This document shows, one piece after another, positions 10,956-16,879 of a DNA stretch of 64,000 nt (the first letter of the stretch is position 1; each line of letters opens with the position of its first letter). Origin of the DNA: Synechococcales cyanobacterium CNB (GTDB lineage: Bacteria > Planctomycetota > Phycisphaerae > Phycisphaerales > UBA1924); NCBI GenBank assembly GCA_030263455.1, contig SZOZ01000002.1, positions 496,001 to 560,000 of the forward strand, given 5' to 3'. The notes beneath the pieces are model-generated. The model did no database searches, was not told where the DNA came from, and saw nothing but the letters and a program-made list of their open reading frames with translations. Both the position numbers and the translations under genes were made by a program.

Positions 10956-12416
10956 ATGAGCTTTCGCATCGACGACGTGTCGGGGATCGAGGGTGGGGCG
11001 ATCGCCGCGCTGATCGAGGAGCACGAGTCGCTCGTCAGGCCGCGCCTCGAAATGCTCTGGCGCTACTACCGCAACCCGATGGACGCCGCTGCGGGGACGT
11101 CGGGCGCGGGACGACGGCTCGCACAACGGGCCGGCCTGCCCCCGCGCCTTGTCGGCCGCCCGCCGGACGACGACGACCGCGCCGGCGATCGCGAGGTCGT
11201 GATCGAGAACGACATCGCCTGGCGCATCCACACGATGGTGGACTTCATGTTCGGCAAGCCGGTGCGCATCCTCAGCGCCGCCCGCGACGCCGCGACTCGC
11301 GAGCGCGTCGAACGCATCCTCGACGCGGTGTGGGAGGCCTCCGGCGGCGTCGCGCTGCTCCAGGACTTCGCGCTGCTCGGGCACGTCTACGGCCATGCGG
11401 ACCTCGTGCTCCGCCTCGACGAAGCCGGGCTGAGGCTGCTCGGAAGACGCGGCACGCCGCCGGACGCGGGCGAGATCGCCGAGCACGCGCGCATCGAACT
11501 GGTCGAGCCGACCCGCGGCGTCCCCGTGCTCAACCCCAGCGACTACCGGCGACTGGACGCCTACGCCGTCCACTTCGAACGCGAACTGAACGAGGTCGAG
11601 CGAACGCGGGGAGGCGTCTTCGGGCCCGGCACGCCGGCGCGGCGTCGGCGTTCTGTCGTCACCGAGGTCATCACGGGCGATACGCGCCGAGTGTACGACG
11701 ACGGCGAAATCGTCGAGGAATCGACGATCACCCTGACGGCCGGCCGAGTGCCGGTCGTGCACGTACAGAACGTCTCGCAGCCGTTCCGCTACTCGGGGCT
11801 GAGCGAGGTCGAGCCCCTCATCCCGCTCCAGGACGAACTCAACACGCGGCTGAGCGACCGCGCGAGCCGCGTCACGCTCCAGAGTTTCAAGATGTACCTG
11901 GCCAGGGGCATCGATGGATTCGAGCGGATGCCCGTCGGACCGGGACGCGTGTGGAGCACGGACAACCCCGAGGCGAGTGTCGAGGCGTTCGGCGGCGACG
12001 CGAGCAGCCCGAGCGAGGAAGCCCACGTGAAGGAAGTGCGCGACGCGCTCGACAAGACCTCGGGCGTGCCCCCGCTGGCAACGGGCGTGGTGCAGGGGCG
12101 CGTGGGGAACCTTTCCAGCGCGAACGCGCTCAAGATCACGCTCGTCGGGCTGCTCGGCAAGACGGAGCGCAAGCGCGTCACCTACGGGCGCGGCATCGTC
12201 GAGGCGTGCGCGATCGTGCTCGGCGCCCTCGACGCCGCGGGCGTGATCGAGATCGACGAGCGCGACCGGGGCGTGCGGCTCGAATGGCCGGACCCCCTGC
12301 CGAGCGACGTGCTCGACGAGACGCTGGCCGCGAAGCGGAAAGTCGAACTGGGCGTGCCCGCCGAGCGCGTGCTCGACGAACTGGGATACCAGCCCAGCGA
12401 CGCCGGCGTGGTGTGA
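10956..12416 (+). CDS. Phage portal protein (SPP1 gp6-like)
   Basis: A 486-residue protein beginning at an ATG with a near-perfect ACAGGAGG ribosome site. Its pattern matches SPP1 gp6-type portals: an N-terminal LEMLWRYYRNP segment, IENDIAWRIHTMVDFMFGKPVR, a central variable beta domain, then FRYSGLSEVEPLIPLQDELN-type wing residues and a C-terminal GNLSSANALKITL and helical region. In tailed phages a dodecameric portal sits at one capsid vertex, nucleates assembly and passes DNA. The scaffold-like gene and major capsid gene follow, as expected of a head module. No terminase gene precedes it, which is unusual. Confidence 0.8.
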   Translation: MSFRIDDVSGIEGGAIAALIEEHESLVRPRLEMLWRYYRNPMDAAAGTSGAGRRLAQRAGLPPRLVGRPPDDDDRAGDREVVIENDIAWRIHTMVDFMFGKPVRILSAARDAATRERVERILDAVWEASGGVALLQDFALLGHVYGHADLVLRLDEAGLRLLGRRGTPPDAGEIAEHARIELVEPTRGVPVLNPSDYRRLDAYAVHFERELNEVERTRGGVFGPGTPARRRRSVVTEVITGDTRRVYDDGEIVEESTITLTAGRVPVVHVQNVSQPFRYSGLSEVEPLIPLQDELNTRLSDRASRVTLQSFKMYLARGIDGFERMPVGPGRVWSTDNPEASVEAFGGDASSPSEEAHVKEVRDALDKTSGVPPLATGVVQGRVGNLSSANALKITLVGLLGKTERKRVTYGRGIVEACAIVLGALDAAGVIEIDERDRGVRLEWPDPLPSDVLDETLAAKRKVELGVPAERVLDELGYQPSDAGVV

Positions 12417-12435
12417 ACACCGGAAGGAGGACGCA

Positions 12436-12915
12436 ATGGAAGAGCACGAGGGCGCGGTGGTTGCGGAGGGAGAGATGGAAGGAACGGAAGGGCTGGAAGT
12501 GGAGCCTGCAAGGCACCGCCCCGGAGAGGGGACAGCGGAGAGCGAGCCGCTCGGCGGTCTGGCGGCGCGGCTGGCGGAGGCCGAGCGGCGCGCGAGCGAT
12601 GCCCTCGCGGAACTGGATCGCGTGCGCCACGAGCGCGAGATCGATCGCGAGCTGCTGCGGGCGGGCGCCGCCGACATCGAGGCAGCGCGGGAGGCGCTCG
12701 GCACGGTCGCGCCCGGCGGCGCGGCGGCGGCTGTGGCCGAGTTGCGGCGGAGGAGGCCCGCGCTCTTCGCGCGGCGCGAGGGCGTGCGTGCCTCGGCCGC
12801 GAGCGTGGCCCGGCGAGGAGCGGAGACCATCGACGAACTGGCCGCGGCGGCGCGGTCCAGCGGCGACCGGCGCCTCCTGCTGCGCTACCTGCGCCAGCGG
12901 CGCGCCGCGCCGTGA
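12436..12915 (+). CDS. Probable capsid scaffold-like protein
   Basis: A 159-residue protein with a strong GGAAGGAGG site before the ATG. Its first 45 residues are strongly acidic, followed by a long Ala/Arg/Glu-rich helical stretch (about residues 50-155) with coiled-coil character. There is no conserved motif that names it. The call rests on position between portal and major capsid genes, small size and composition, which match scaffolding proteins of tailed phages; such proteins guide shell assembly and are then lost. A minor structural role is the alternative. Confidence 0.5.
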   Translation: MEEHEGAVVAEGEMEGTEGLEVEPARHRPGEGTAESEPLGGLAARLAEAERRASDALAELDRVRHEREIDRELLRAGAADIEAAREALGTVAPGGAAAAVAELRRRRPALFARREGVRASAASVARRGAETIDELAAAARSSGDRRLLLRYLRQRRAAP

Positions 12916-13031
12916 CGGCGAAACGAGGAGCGAAGAGGCTCGCCGGCCGCGGCGCGGCGCGTGTCCGCGACCGTCCGGCGCAGAGCGAGCGGGGGTGAAC
13001 CGTGTCCGGCGGACTTGAAGGAGGAGGAGCG

Positions 13032-14210
13032 ATGAGTTTCACGGGAAAGGCGACGTATTCGGCGGGGTCCGGGCTTCCTGAACTGGCGGAGGACGTGTCC
13101 GACGTGATCGGCATCGTCAGTCCGTCCGAGACGCCGCTCCTGGACTACCTGGGCGACCCGCGACGCGAGGCGATGGGAACCGTGCACGAGTGGATCGAAG
13201 ACGCACTGCTGCCGAACTTCGACCACCTCAACCAGACGGTCTTCGTGCCCAACCCCGAGACGGCGACGTCGCTGACGGTCGACAACGGGTCGCGCTTCCG
13301 CATCGGCGACCTCGTGCGCCCGGACGGGTGGAACGAGGTGATGCTGGTGGCGAACGTGGTGGGGAACGTGCTGACGGTCGTGCGCGGGTACGGCGGGACG
13401 CCCAACGCAACGCTCGAGGACAACCTGCGCCTCATCATCATCGGCAACGCCGCGCTCGAGGGCGCGGAGGCCCCCACCGCCCGCTTCACCAACCGCGCCC
13501 GCAGGCGGAACTACACCCAGATCTTCACGGCGAGCGTCTGGGTCAGCGGGTCGATGCAGGCGGCGCGAGCCCACGGCGTCGAGGACGAGGCCGACTACCA
13601 GAAACAGGAACGCCTGCGCGAACTGATCCGCGACCTCGAGAACACCGTCATCAACGGCGTTGCGCCCACGAGCGACCAGCAAGGCTCGTCCACCGTGCGG
13701 CGCACCATGAACGGCGTCGTGCCCTCCATCGCCACCAACCGCTTCGCGCCGGGCCAGGGCGGCCTGCCCGACGGCGGGGGCACGAGCGGCACGGTCCTCA
13801 CCGAAGAACTCCTCAACTCCGCACTCCAGCGCATCTGGGAGCAGTCCAACGGCCCGATCGACACGATCGTGGTGAACGGCGTGCAGAAGCGGATGCTCAA
13901 CGAGTTCCTCGGCTCGCAGCGCTCCTTCGGGCCGGACGACGATTCGTTCCGCAACCTGGTCAACGTCTATGAGAGCGACTTCGGCGTCTGCCGCGTCGTG
14001 CTCAGCCGGTGGGCGCCCGCCGACAAGGTGCTGCTCCTCGACAGCAGCCGCATCCAGGTGATGCCGCTCGCCGGACGGTCGTTCCACTACGCGCCGCTGG
14101 CGGCGACCGGCGACTCCGTGCGAGGGCAACTCGTCGGCGAGTACACGCTCGAGTTCAAGAACGAGAACGCGCACGGGCTGATCGGAGGCCTGAGCGTGAC
14201 CGGCGACTGA
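13032..14210 (+). CDS. Major capsid protein (SU10-like, HK97 fold)
   Basis: A 392-residue protein; ATG 13032 has the AAGGAGGAGG ribosome site, whereas GTG 13002 has none. The body resembles SU10-type major capsid proteins: an early ISP/SETPLLDYLG segment, RNYTQIFTASVWVSGS in the middle, the QKQERLRELIRDLE helix followed by NG, then NGVQKRMLNEF and a C-terminal GRSFHYAPLA-x-TGDS block. These form HK97-fold shells. Together with the portal upstream this indicates a genuine phage-type head, not an encapsulin. G+C and codon use look the same as the surrounding chromosome, arguing for long residence. Confidence 0.8.
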   Translation: MSFTGKATYSAGSGLPELAEDVSDVIGIVSPSETPLLDYLGDPRREAMGTVHEWIEDALLPNFDHLNQTVFVPNPETATSLTVDNGSRFRIGDLVRPDGWNEVMLVANVVGNVLTVVRGYGGTPNATLEDNLRLIIIGNAALEGAEAPTARFTNRARRRNYTQIFTASVWVSGSMQAARAHGVEDEADYQKQERLRELIRDLENTVINGVAPTSDQQGSSTVRRTMNGVVPSIATNRFAPGQGGLPDGGGTSGTVLTEELLNSALQRIWEQSNGPIDTIVVNGVQKRMLNEFLGSQRSFGPDDDSFRNLVNVYESDFGVCRVVLSRWAPADKVLLLDSSRIQVMPLAGRSFHYAPLAATGDSVRGQLVGEYTLEFKNENAHGLIGGLSVTGD

Positions 14211-14310
14211 TCGCGGGGAGGGGGACTCCGCGTGCGTGCCCGCGGCCCGTCGAAAGGCGTGCCGCGGGTTTGAAGACGGCCGATCGCGCCGAGACGCGGA
14301 AGGGGGAACC

Positions 14311-14946
14311 ATGTTCGCCAGGGATCGCGACCTGCTCACGCTCGAACCGAACCTGCTGCGCGACGTCGGCTGGGCGGGACAACGCCTCGTGCGCGGCACG
14401 GGCGGCGCGGCCGGCACCACGCTCGCCATGTCCAGCCAGGACGCAGGCTTCGACGCCGCGGGCATCGGGGCGGGGAACATCGTGCTCGTGGACGGCACGG
14501 CGTACGAGGTGATCGAACGAACGACACCGGCGTCGCTGGTGATCTCGCGGCTGCGGGCGGCGGAGAGCGACCCGCTGCTGCCGGCCAGCCCGGTGTCCGG
14601 TGTGCCGGTGGAAGTGATGACGTTCCGCCCGCAGATCGCGCTGGTGAACGCCCAGACGATGCGCATGCTCGGGATCGACCCCGAAAGCGGGGACGGGCCG
14701 GGCGAGGCGAGCGTCACGAATCCGTGGGCGATGCGGCTGCTGGTGTCGCTGGGTGCGCTGCACCTGGTCTACGCGGCGGCGTCCGCCCTCGCGCCGGCAG
14801 GGTCGCCGCTGCGTGACAGGGCGGAGATGTACCGCGAGCGGTTCGCGGCCGAGCGGCAGCGCGTCGCCGCCCGCATCGACACCGACGGCGACGGCGAGGC
14901 GGATGCGGTGCGGAGGCCGAGCGTGCTGCTCTTGGAGAGACAGTGA
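14311..14946 (+). CDS. Phage-cluster protein, possible head-tail connector
   Basis: A 211-residue protein starting at an ATG with an AAGGGGGAA site. It lies directly downstream of the major capsid gene, where head-completion or head-tail connector proteins are usual, and its C-terminal half has the MRLLVSLGALHLVYAAASAL and helical region resembling gp15/neck adaptors of the type that includes a DTDGDGEAD acidic stretch. No diagnostic motif was recognised, so the assignment is positional. The next gene can start inside its stop codon (GTGA) or 90 bases later. Confidence 0.55.
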   Translation: MFARDRDLLTLEPNLLRDVGWAGQRLVRGTGGAAGTTLAMSSQDAGFDAAGIGAGNIVLVDGTAYEVIERTTPASLVISRLRAAESDPLLPASPVSGVPVEVMTFRPQIALVNAQTMRMLGIDPESGDGPGEASVTNPWAMRLLVSLGALHLVYAAASALAPAGSPLRDRAEMYRERFAAERQRVAARIDTDGDGEADAVRRPSVLLLERQ

Positions 14947-14966
14947 CGGAGCGACCGATCGTGCAG

Positions 14967-15018
14967 CCCGACTTCTTGCACCGCTCCCTTCGCGCTCTCC
15001 GCCCCCTCGCGTTCAGAT
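14967..15018 (-). repeat. Purine-rich GAACGCGAG-type dispersed repeat copy
   Basis: Read on the minus strand the segment gives TGAACGCGAGGGGGCGGA followed by GAGCGCGAAGGGAGCGG, the same style as copies at 15455, 40741, 56535 and 56675. It lies between the connector gene and the best start (15039) of the next gene, suggesting insertion into the phage cluster. Confidence 0.45.
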
Positions 15019-15038
15019 CGATCGTGCTGGAGACGAAC

Positions 15039-15446
15039 ATGCTGCTGCTGACGCCTCGGGTGGTTCGGTTCGGTGACGCGACCTGGGAGGACGTGTCGGC
15101 GGTCGTGGTGGACCGCTCGGCGCGGCGGAAGGTCGTCGAGTGGTCCGACCTGGGGCCGCACGTCACGCTCGCGGACGTGCCCGAACAGGAGGTCACCGTG
15201 CGCGTGGTGCAGGGGATCACGCGCGACGCGCCGGACGGCCCGAAGCCCGGCGACGCGGGCGAACTCTCGTTCGCCACCTCGCCCGCCGGGAGCGACGCGG
15301 CGCGGCGTCGCGTCCGGGCGCAGGCGGTCGTCCTGGACGTGCGGCACGAACTCTCGGTCAAGGGCGGCGCAACGCGGACGGTGACACTGGTGGCCGTTTC
15401 GCCGGACGGCGCGGCGGACCCTGTGGTCGTCGAGGATGCCGGCTGA
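15039..15446 (+). CDS. Phage-cluster protein, possible tail or neck component
   Basis: A 135-residue protein from ATG 15039, chosen because GGAG lies seven bases upstream and the sequence before it is repeat-like. The longer reading from GTG 14943 (167 residues, overlapping the previous stop) is possible. The protein is Val/Asp/Arg-rich and beta-structured, with no membrane segment or signal. Position among head genes, and small size, suggest a neck, tail-tube or tail-terminator role. No family recognised. Confidence 0.5.
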   Translation: MLLLTPRVVRFGDATWEDVSAVVVDRSARRKVVEWSDLGPHVTLADVPEQEVTVRVVQGITRDAPDGPKPGDAGELSFATSPAGSDAARRRVRAQAVVLDVRHELSVKGGATRTVTLVAVSPDGAADPVVVEDAG

Positions 15447-15454
15447 AGCGGACG

Positions 15455-15510
15455 AACGCGGAATGAGTTGAACGCGAAGATCACGAAGGGGCCGAGAGAA
15501 GGATGGGAAA
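15455..15510 (+). repeat. Purine-rich GAACGCGAAG-type dispersed repeat copy
   Basis: Contains GAACGCGGAATGAGT then TGAACGCGAAGATCACGAAGG, followed by a GAGAGAAGGATGGG tail, in the gap between two phage-cluster genes. Same family as the copies at 40741 and 56535. Confidence 0.5.
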
Positions 15511-15517
15511 TGCGAGC

Positions 15518-15545
15518 AGCCACTTCGTCACTCCATCACTCTGCC
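15518..15545 (-). repeat. Dispersed GTGACGAAGTGACGGAGTG-type repeat, copy 1
   Basis: The plus strand reads CACTTCGTCACTCCATCACTC; its complement is near-identical to the intergenic copies at 48068-48092 and 62070-62092. All three lie just after a coding region. Confidence 0.5.
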
Positions 15546-15578
15546 GCTGCGCAACTTCTCGCGCCTTGAGGAGGCATG

Positions 15579-15959
15579 ATGGCCAGTTCGTTCAAGGGCG
15601 TTGACCTGTTCGGGAGCGGGCCGCACCGGTTCGCGCAGGCTCGGCAGGGGCAGTTGATGCTGACCCGGCTGTACTTCGGAGACATCTCGCCGGGGACGAT
15701 CCCGATCGGGCTGCGCGAGCCGGACGTGATCGTCGCGGGCCGGCTGGTGGCGGCGAGCGAGAGCACGCTCTGGACGCTGCGCGACGCGGTCGTGGCGCAA
15801 CTCCAGGAGTCGCCGACGCCGGGCACGCTTGTGGACCTGCACGGCCGGTCATGGTCGAACATGACGTTCATCGACTGGCGCGAGGGCGATCGCACCGATC
15901 GCGGTCGCGTGCGGTCGGTGGCGTACGTGGCGGTGTTTCGGCGGGTGAGGACGTCGTGA
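15579..15959 (+). CDS. Phage-cluster protein, possible distal tail/baseplate component
   Basis: A 126-residue protein. Two ATGs occur in tandem at 15576 and 15579; the second is four bases from the end of the GAGGAGG site and is preferred. The sequence has alternating beta strands with VIVAGRLVA, TLVDLHGRSW and FIDWREGDR-x-DRGR, a pattern resembling small tail or baseplate hub proteins that end in a YVAVF strand. It follows the head genes in phage order. Assignment is tentative and based on position and fold impression. Confidence 0.5.
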   Translation: MASSFKGVDLFGSGPHRFAQARQGQLMLTRLYFGDISPGTIPIGLREPDVIVAGRLVAASESTLWTLRDAVVAQLQESPTPGTLVDLHGRSWSNMTFIDWREGDRTDRGRVRSVAYVAVFRRVRTS

Positions 15960-15992
15960 GGTGGTGATGAGGCCGAAGGCGGGAGGGGACGG

Positions 15993-16316
15993 ATGGAGGC
16001 GGGGCTGGCGGGCGCGGTGGCACAGTTCGGGGCGGCAGGGCTGGTCGGGTGGATGTGGCTCACGGAGCGTCGCGCGGCGGCATCGCGCGAGCGGCAGCTG
16101 GCCGAGGCTCACGACGCGCTGGCGCGCGAGCGGACCTCGCTCGACGCGCTGCTCTCGACGGTGGGCGCGAACACACGCGCGATGGCGGGCGTGGAGGGCG
16201 CGGTACGCGACCTGAGCGGCGCGATCGAGCGGCTGCGGTCGGCGTGCGACACCGGGGCGCGGGGGGCGCGGCGGCCGACGGGGCCGTCGCCGGCGCGGTA
16301 CACTGGACCGCGATGA
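15993..16316 (+). CDS. Small membrane protein, holin-like or lysis-accessory
   Basis: A 107-residue protein with a hydrophobic segment at about residues 5-24 (GAVAQFGAAGLVGWMWL), then a long charged helix with coiled-coil character (residues 25-85) and a basic, Pro-rich end. A single N-terminal membrane segment with a cytoplasmic coiled coil is typical of small phage membrane proteins such as XhlA-type lysis accessories. GGAGGGGACGG precedes the ATG. No endolysin gene follows; instead a chromosomal-type lipoprotein gene overlaps its stop codon (ATGA). Confidence 0.5.
   Translation: MEAGLAGAVAQFGAAGLVGWMWLTERRAAASRERQLAEAHDALARERTSLDALLSTVGANTRAMAGVEGAVRDLSGAIERLRSACDTGARGARRPTGPSPARYTGPR
16299..16304 (+). 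promoter_or_regulatory. TACACT -10-like element
   Basis: TACACT ends eight bases before the lipoprotein start at 16313, inside the end of the upstream gene. It fits the window-wide pattern of TAnnnT hexamers placed for leaderless transcripts. Confidence 0.4.
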
Positions 16317-16879
16317 GCCGCACGGTCGCCGCTTCGATGGTGGTGTGCGCCGCGACGCTGGCGTTCGTGCCGGGGTGCTCGTTGACGCGCGCCGGGGCGG
16401 ACGCCGGGCCGTCCGAGATGGCTGTGATGCGCCATCCGTTCGCGCCGACGGCGATCCGCATCTATCCGCTGACGCACCTGACGCGCGACCCGGAGCACGG
16501 CGACGTGATCATGTGCCACGTCGAGTTGAAGGACCGCTGGGGCGACGCCGTGAAGGCTGTCGGCGAGCTGGAGGTGCAGTTGTTTTCGTACCCGACGGAC
16601 GGGAGCACGCTGCGCCAGGAGGCGACGTGGCCGGTGCCGGAGATGATGCAGCCGGACGTGAACTCGGCCCTGTTCGACCCGGCGACGCGGACGTACCGGC
16701 TGCGGCTGGGCCGCGTGCCGCCCTGGGTGCGTGACATGATCTCGCGGCGCGAGGCGGTCGAGCGCGGCGAGACGCCGCACGGGCAGCGCAGGCGGTTGCT
16801 GCTGAAGGCGGTCTTCCGCACGGTCGATCCGCAGGGGCGTGAATCGACTCTCTTTGATGAGTTCGTGATCGAGCAGTGA
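16313..16879 (+). CDS. Unknown exported lipoprotein
   Basis: A 188-residue protein with a lipoprotein signal: hydrophobic AASMVVCAATLAFVPG followed by Cys at residue 23. The mature part carries ICPL-like beta segments (IRIYPLTHLTRD, DVIMCHVELKDRWGD) and a basic C-terminal region with REAVERGE; it may be a beta-sandwich. No family was recognised. Its ATG overlaps the stop of the holin-like gene (ATGA), which suggests coupled translation with the phage-type cluster, but a TACACT hexamer eight bases upstream could give it an independent transcript. Location: periplasmic face of the inner or outer membrane. Confidence 0.75.
   Translation: MSRTVAASMVVCAATLAFVPGCSLTRAGADAGPSEMAVMRHPFAPTAIRIYPLTHLTRDPEHGDVIMCHVELKDRWGDAVKAVGELEVQLFSYPTDGSTLRQEATWPVPEMMQPDVNSALFDPATRTYRLRLGRVPPWVRDMISRREAVERGETPHGQRRRLLLKAVFRTVDPQGRESTLFDEFVIEQ

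Follow-up and report, generated by a model that had tools for sequence, protein, structure and literature searches.

Within the 64-kb window analysed here (the whole stretch of DNA under study, taken from a 3.2-Mb Planctomycetota genome whose relatives are labelled Phycisphaerae or Phycisphaerales), eight consecutive genes include those of a tailed-phage head, and the question is what such genes are doing on a bacterial chromosome. The sequence-only reading regarded a domesticated gene transfer agent (GTA) or a repurposed DNA or protein compartment as possible and took a decayed prophage as the plain alternative. From comparative sequence analysis we consider it likely that the cluster is the head and tail-tube locus of a GTA, which would derive from a tailed phage captured before the Phycisphaerae diversified and would have been inherited mostly vertically since then.

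Gene content of the head and tail-tube cluster

The genes lie head to tail on the plus strand between positions 10956 and 16879:

10956-12416, plus strand: portal protein, 486 aa (Pfam SPP1_portal, E 5.9e-15; PHROG portal, 5.7e-22; dN/dS 0.10; class-wide)
12436-12915, plus strand: scaffold-like protein, 159 aa (between portal and capsid, kept there in relatives; dN/dS 0.51)
13032-14210, plus strand: major capsid protein of SU10 type, 392 aa (SU10_MCP, E 1.1e-85; PHROG major head protein, 1e-77)
14311-14946, plus strand: probable head-tail adaptor, 211 aa (AlphaFold model, weak structural matches; class-wide)
15039-15446, plus strand: protein modelled as a tail tube, 135 aa (AlphaFold model and Foldseek match)
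15576-15959, plus strand: conserved protein in tail/neck position, 127 aa (present from the host's own family to Sedimentisphaerales)
15993-16316, plus strand: small protein, holin-like in appearance only, 107 aa (23 homologues aligned)
16313-16879, plus strand: lipoprotein with lipobox VPGC (found behind the cluster also in genera whose flanking genes differ; dN/dS 0.15)

Judged by their sequence matches, the identities of the portal and the major capsid protein are certain, and the Pfam and PHROG searches confirmed both where the sequence-only reading had placed them. The gene between them, the fastest-evolving of the set, gave no convincing family match in Pfam or PHROG; we keep the label scaffold-like, already proposed in that reading, because of its position and its conservation there in relatives. 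The connector- or tail-like genes were also rightly noted: they have no sequence-family match in Pfam or PHROG, and profile searches of PDB with the adaptor, tube and 127-aa proteins gave no match, but one of them models as a tail tube. AlphaFold models were built from alignments of relatives. For the 14311-14946 product (pLDDT 95), Foldseek returned no good PDB match and BFVD no clear match, while a second-look comparison aligned it weakly (Z 6.4-6.8 over 90-105 residues) with tail proteins of the podoviruses B2, KHP30, SU10 and N4; it is probably a head-tail adaptor. The 15039-15446 product (pLDDT 88) has the tail tube of siphophage R4C as its top Foldseek match (E 8.7e-5, TM 0.68-0.70), and the second-look comparison gave Z 10.8, with Z 9.1 for the RcGTA tube.

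As to the end of the cluster, the aligned homologues of the 107-aa protein have a single N-terminal hydrophobic stretch and a charged tail, and the bacteriocin-type holin families of PHROG were matched at E 0.3-0.5 only. Its gene overlaps that of the lipoprotein (16313-16316), as had been reported; the description of the lipoprotein as chromosomal-type probably needs correction. It follows the cluster in 28 loci, including genera with different flanking genes, and since it travels with the cluster across differing chromosomal settings it probably belongs to the module; we regard it as a candidate lysis partner. The G+C content (0.68-0.75 against about 0.70 in the surroundings) is host-like, in agreement with the earlier claim; equally in agreement, we could recognise neither integrase nor terminase, tape measure or lysin within the cluster, and no tRNA was found in the window.

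The terminase operon and its linkage to the head genes

True of the cluster, the lack of a terminase does not extend to the genome, in which the search for a distant gene of this kind found an intact large terminase (contig C2:439560-441083) 66 kb upstream of the portal. It belongs to the following locus:

contig C2:439560-444226: terminase, GNAT, sigma-region-4-like HTH protein and divergent repressor

A search of the genome with Pfam PF03237 gave no terminase, and the protein scores 17.4 bits against Pfam Terminase_6C, below the 22.6-bit cut-off, so that its identification rests on PHROG, motifs and linkage. The PHROG phrog_2 profile finds a terminase-like frame of 500-540 aa in most family genomes, as a rule a single one at a distance from the capsid; a family-specific profile gave a far stronger match than phrog_2 and found the terminase class-wide. 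Walker A (WANRGGGKT), Walker B (LRCDE) and the nuclease residues (GMDFG, the Asp of (D/V)DxAG, and KDGxDH..DALRY) show little or no variation across 14 genomes.

The GNAT gene and the gene of the HTH protein lie upstream of the terminase. The GNAT matches PHROG phrog_886 (ABC transporter ATP-binding subunit; 3.3e-9). An ABC ATPase gene stands in the terminase operon of several relatives, while in the operon of this genome no ABC gene was found, GNAT only. Genes of these two types (GNAT, or the ABC ATPase of relatives) lie in terminase operons at L140:5365-6288, L148:12504-13226 and L212:13214-15205, all on the minus strand. The divergently transcribed repressor combines HTH and Peptidase_S24 domains (LexA/cI-like) and matches the PHROG transcriptional repressor family (2.2e-26). 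The residues of LexA-type self-cleavage (Ala-Gly site, Ser and Lys) are kept in eight of nine aligned repressors, the ninth (L149) being a divergent partial match. The genome has a single copy of the palindrome ATGTTCAATGAACAT, which lies in the gap between the S24 repressor gene and the HTH gene (C2:443271-443285, L261); the intergenic region of the sister species lacks it and a similar palindrome was found in only one other relative, and on these grounds we do not claim it as an operator.

Throughout the class, terminase and capsid are found together in 180 genomes, capsid only in 6, terminase only in 31 and neither in 179 (Fisher p 3e-70, uncorrected for phylogeny, i.e. for shared ancestry); some of the 31 terminase-only genomes may have missed capsids or other terminases. 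Of 12 deep relatives selected because they carry the capsid, 11 also have the terminase. In the deep relative G170 a single strand carries, successively, ABC ATPase, GNAT, terminase, portal, scaffold, capsid and adaptor, the stretch from terminase to adaptor falling within 8 kb, and in G037 the head and terminase loci are 5 kb apart.

That terminase presence tracks the capsid across the class argues against a protein-only compartment, and so against the protein half of the earlier suggestion of a repurposed DNA or protein compartment. Enzyme compartments are known that arose from domesticated HK97-fold shells (PMC8346489), and an encapsulin-like compartment without DNA would share with our system an HK97-type shell protein encoded in a bacterial chromosome. 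An encapsulin shell gene is, however, free of portal, terminase and tail genes, whereas here it is accompanied by portal, terminase, adaptor and tail tube, and the portal, terminase and tail tube are co-conserved with it; this explanation therefore seems to us exceedingly remote.

Conservation, selection and descent

Within the host's family, 147 of 163 genomes (109 of the 112 good ones) have the capsid gene, usually as one copy and at 57-94% identity; in the class Phycisphaerae, 186 of 396 genomes have it. Elsewhere in the phylum, strong capsid matches are confined to six genomes of three families; family f4 of the same order is wholly without the system, as are many other class members, and, the genomes being mostly metagenome assemblies, some absences may be assembly loss. 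Within the genus, the cluster occupies the same asd-coaD place (the window and L032), and in other genera the flanking genes differ.

According to NG86 estimates for the window and its genus relative, dN/dS is 0.104 for the capsid and 0.103 for the portal, 0.126 for the terminase, 0.148 for the repressor, 0.13 for the adaptor and 0.17-0.32 for the small tail-position genes; the neighbouring host genes give 0.226 (asd), 0.239 (nuoL), 0.112 (PLP-enzyme) and 0.026 (coaD). No stops were found between the two genus members compared. The cluster is under purifying selection. A recent decaying prophage, suggested by the small gene number and by the absence of a visible integrase or att repeats, should show patchy presence, relaxed selection and stops; the class-wide conservation, the occurrence in close relatives, the dN/dS of 0.10 and the reading frames free of premature stops in the genus pair refute what the sequence-only reading had called the plain alternative, and we find it barely credible. 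The domesticated GTA admitted as possible in the same reading is supported by the class-wide retention, the purifying selection and the co-diversification with the host.

From the host's family to Sedimentisphaerales, the portal is succeeded by scaffold, capsid and adaptor in the same order, and in Sedimentisphaerales more tail-like genes come after them. The longer clusters of deep relatives (L110 12354-19405; L212 2850-6017) carry uncharacterised tail-like proteins, among them a conserved protein of about 610 aa without a PDB sequence match. A search of 15 family genomes found the large Sedimentisphaerales hub-like protein in none of them, and in the host's family neither a tape measure nor a tail hub, fibre or endolysin was recognised. 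The missing tail genes are the main weakness of the GTA reading; the broken capsid genes of 17 family genomes, the class members that lack the system and the 31 genomes with a terminase but no detected capsid also count against it. The lack of tail genes, and with it the fact that the genes best preserved are portal, terminase and capsid, speak for a domesticated DNA-packaging head with a non-delivery use, such as protection or disposal of intracellular DNA, in the host's family at least, whose tail gene set seems reduced. We nevertheless consider such a use unlikely, in view of the retained tail-tube protein and adaptor and of the long tail-like clusters in deep relatives; moreover, tail genes could be unrecognisable or reside in a third locus.

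As for descent, single-gene FastTree trees of 35 genomes from nine families gave correlated distances (capsid-terminase 0.85, capsid-rpoB 0.83, terminase-rpoB 0.89; Mantel p 0.001 each), and the families f1, f11, f15, f23 and f24 are monophyletic in the capsid, terminase and rpoB trees, with f20 as an exception. Well-supported conflicts among the three trees are also present. In the genome G456 (L241-L243) capsid and terminase both sit with f23 and rpoB does not; since the two regroup together, a joint transfer of both loci is suggested.

No close phage relatives were found among 50,697 phage records, the best identities being about 32-34% for the capsid, 27% for the portal and 24% for the terminase, the last to a single phage, a Microcystis phage. 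Thus SU10-like podoviruses and siphophages with SU10_MCP capsids resemble our system in the capsid family (1.1e-85) and, weakly, in the adaptor-like protein, but differ by these low identities. A single-sequence scan of IMG/VR gave no relatives and alignment scans gave a handful. The IMG/VR loci L167-L169, on contigs listed as viral, carry the capsid at 58-60% identity. The best-covered of them, L169, may be a chromosomal cluster miscalled viral, because its gene order and composition are those of the Sedimentisphaerales clusters.

The few IMG/VR contigs, the phage-type repressor and the regrouping in G456, with the occasional joint transfer that it suggests, would suit an ancient phage lineage, defective or latent, that occasionally still spreads as a virus. 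Such a lineage is hard to reconcile with two separate loci with varying neighbours, at neither of which a replication or integrase gene is recognisable, with a single copy per genome nearly throughout the family, with host-like G+C and congruent trees, and with the domesticated gene order of L169; we hold it to be distinctly improbable.

In 17 family genomes the capsid match begins abruptly near residue 57 (or 48), and in several of them the first 60-67 residues are encoded about 11 kb upstream, the insertion point being the codons just after 57 of the capsid gene (about codon 60). Four copies of the inserted 11-kb element were read across:

L112 3313-14282: 11-kb element
L113 3384-14279: 11-kb element
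L117 3573-14704: 11-kb element
L114 1411-12268: 11-kb element

The element encodes a large serine integrase (PHROG integrase, 4e-83), a Mu-gpT-type capsid-protease fusion (4e-76), a primase-like AAA protein, a sigma-like protein and methyltransferases, not each gene having been identified in each of the four copies, and it ends in the inverted arms CCCGTCTGAC and GTCAGACGGG. Three copies from different genera share 86-91% DNA identity over about 7.2-7.5 kb, and as the interrupted capsids differ much more, the element has moved recently. A similar capsid split occurs in G305, a genome of another family. We describe the insert as a satellite-like parasite with its own capsid gene; a programmed, excised element is a conceivable alternative reading. 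A mobile element that targets the capsid gene fits the expectation for a dependable chromosomal gene.

The methyltransferases carried by the element, along with the phage-type induction switch, might point to a defence or interference device, in which capsid and terminase would spoil infecting phages. Capsid interference, however, needs neither a complete catalytic terminase nor a portal, the terminase and GNAT gave no PADLOC match, and the ABC ATPase gave weak P-loop matches only, which makes a defence role very improbable.

Comparison with gene transfer agents

By definition (PMC9662315), GTAs consist of tailed-phage-derived proteins, have a fully endogenised genome, often in several loci, and are inherited mostly vertically, co-diversifying with the host; further, they contain mostly random host DNA, have a head too small for their own genome, and deliver the DNA to other cells. 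Three of these six features can be judged from sequence, and all three were found in this system, known here from its genes: phage-derived proteins (the capsid, portal and terminase matches and the tail-tube fold), endogenisation in several loci (at a distance of 66 kb here and 5 kb in G037, united in G170) and vertical inheritance (r 0.83-0.89; five monophyletic families, with f20 as an exception). The class-wide retention, together with a packaging motor encoded elsewhere on the chromosome, suggests that the carriers probably make virus-like particles that move their own DNA between cells.

Taking the observed gene content, motifs, linkage, conservation, selection and congruence as the basis, we propose that expression, regulation, packaging and modification of host DNA, release and delivery could proceed as follows. 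Under stress or DNA damage the repressor would cleave itself, allowing expression of the HTH activator and the terminase operon and switching on the head locus. Portal, scaffold and capsid would assemble into a prohead, which the terminase would pack with chromosomal DNA, possibly modified chemically by the ABC/GNAT pair. The adaptor and tube would then close the filled head, and the small membrane protein and the lipoprotein may assist release.

Among the known systems, GTAs of the RcGTA type (Rhodogtaviriformidae, Caulobacter GTA) are similar in having phage-derived head and tail genes that are vertically inherited, under selection and distributed over several loci; the likeness to RcGTA is one of description and of tube fold (Z 9.1). 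Differences from RcGTA are the host phylum, the SU10-type capsid and the separate terminase operon with GNAT and ABC ATPase. In Caulobacter, the LexA-like RogA represses the GTA activators gafYZ (PMC9632790), and a LexA/cI-like repressor beside an activator gene is thus common to both systems; RogA, however, lacks key cleavage residues (PMC9632790), whereas the repressor here keeps the catalytic ones. Pairs of ABC ATPase and GNAT are predicted to acylate DNA bases, according to a statement in PMC7824862 that cites earlier work; the resemblance to these predicted base modifiers lies in the protein types and their adjacency in the terminase operon of relatives, the operon of this genome having GNAT only. 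That the pair modifies DNA bases is our conjecture, and modification would be a reason for keeping it in a packaging operon.

Three groups of GTAs, two of alphaproteobacteria and one of spirochaetes, have been classified, each a separate phage capture (PMC9662315), and among the listed titles and abstracts of papers naming both GTAs and Planctomycetes (outside subscription journals and preprints), none appeared to describe such a system in this group. Only tentatively, and with considerable doubt, do we suggest the fuller picture of an independent, class-old Planctomycetota GTA with a self-cleaving SOS-type repressor and ABC/GNAT-marked DNA, parasitised by a capsid-encoding element that integrates in the GTA capsid gene.

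The GTA reading is testable, as the terminase and capsid are known genes in known places, the intact self-cleavage site of the repressor predicts induction by DNA damage, and the element within the capsid gene provides a natural knock-out in many genomes. If the reading is true, one more capture, maintained over a class of Planctomycetota and several of its families, would show that bacteria repeatedly and stably retain such particles, and the question of why they do so could be put to a second deep lineage.
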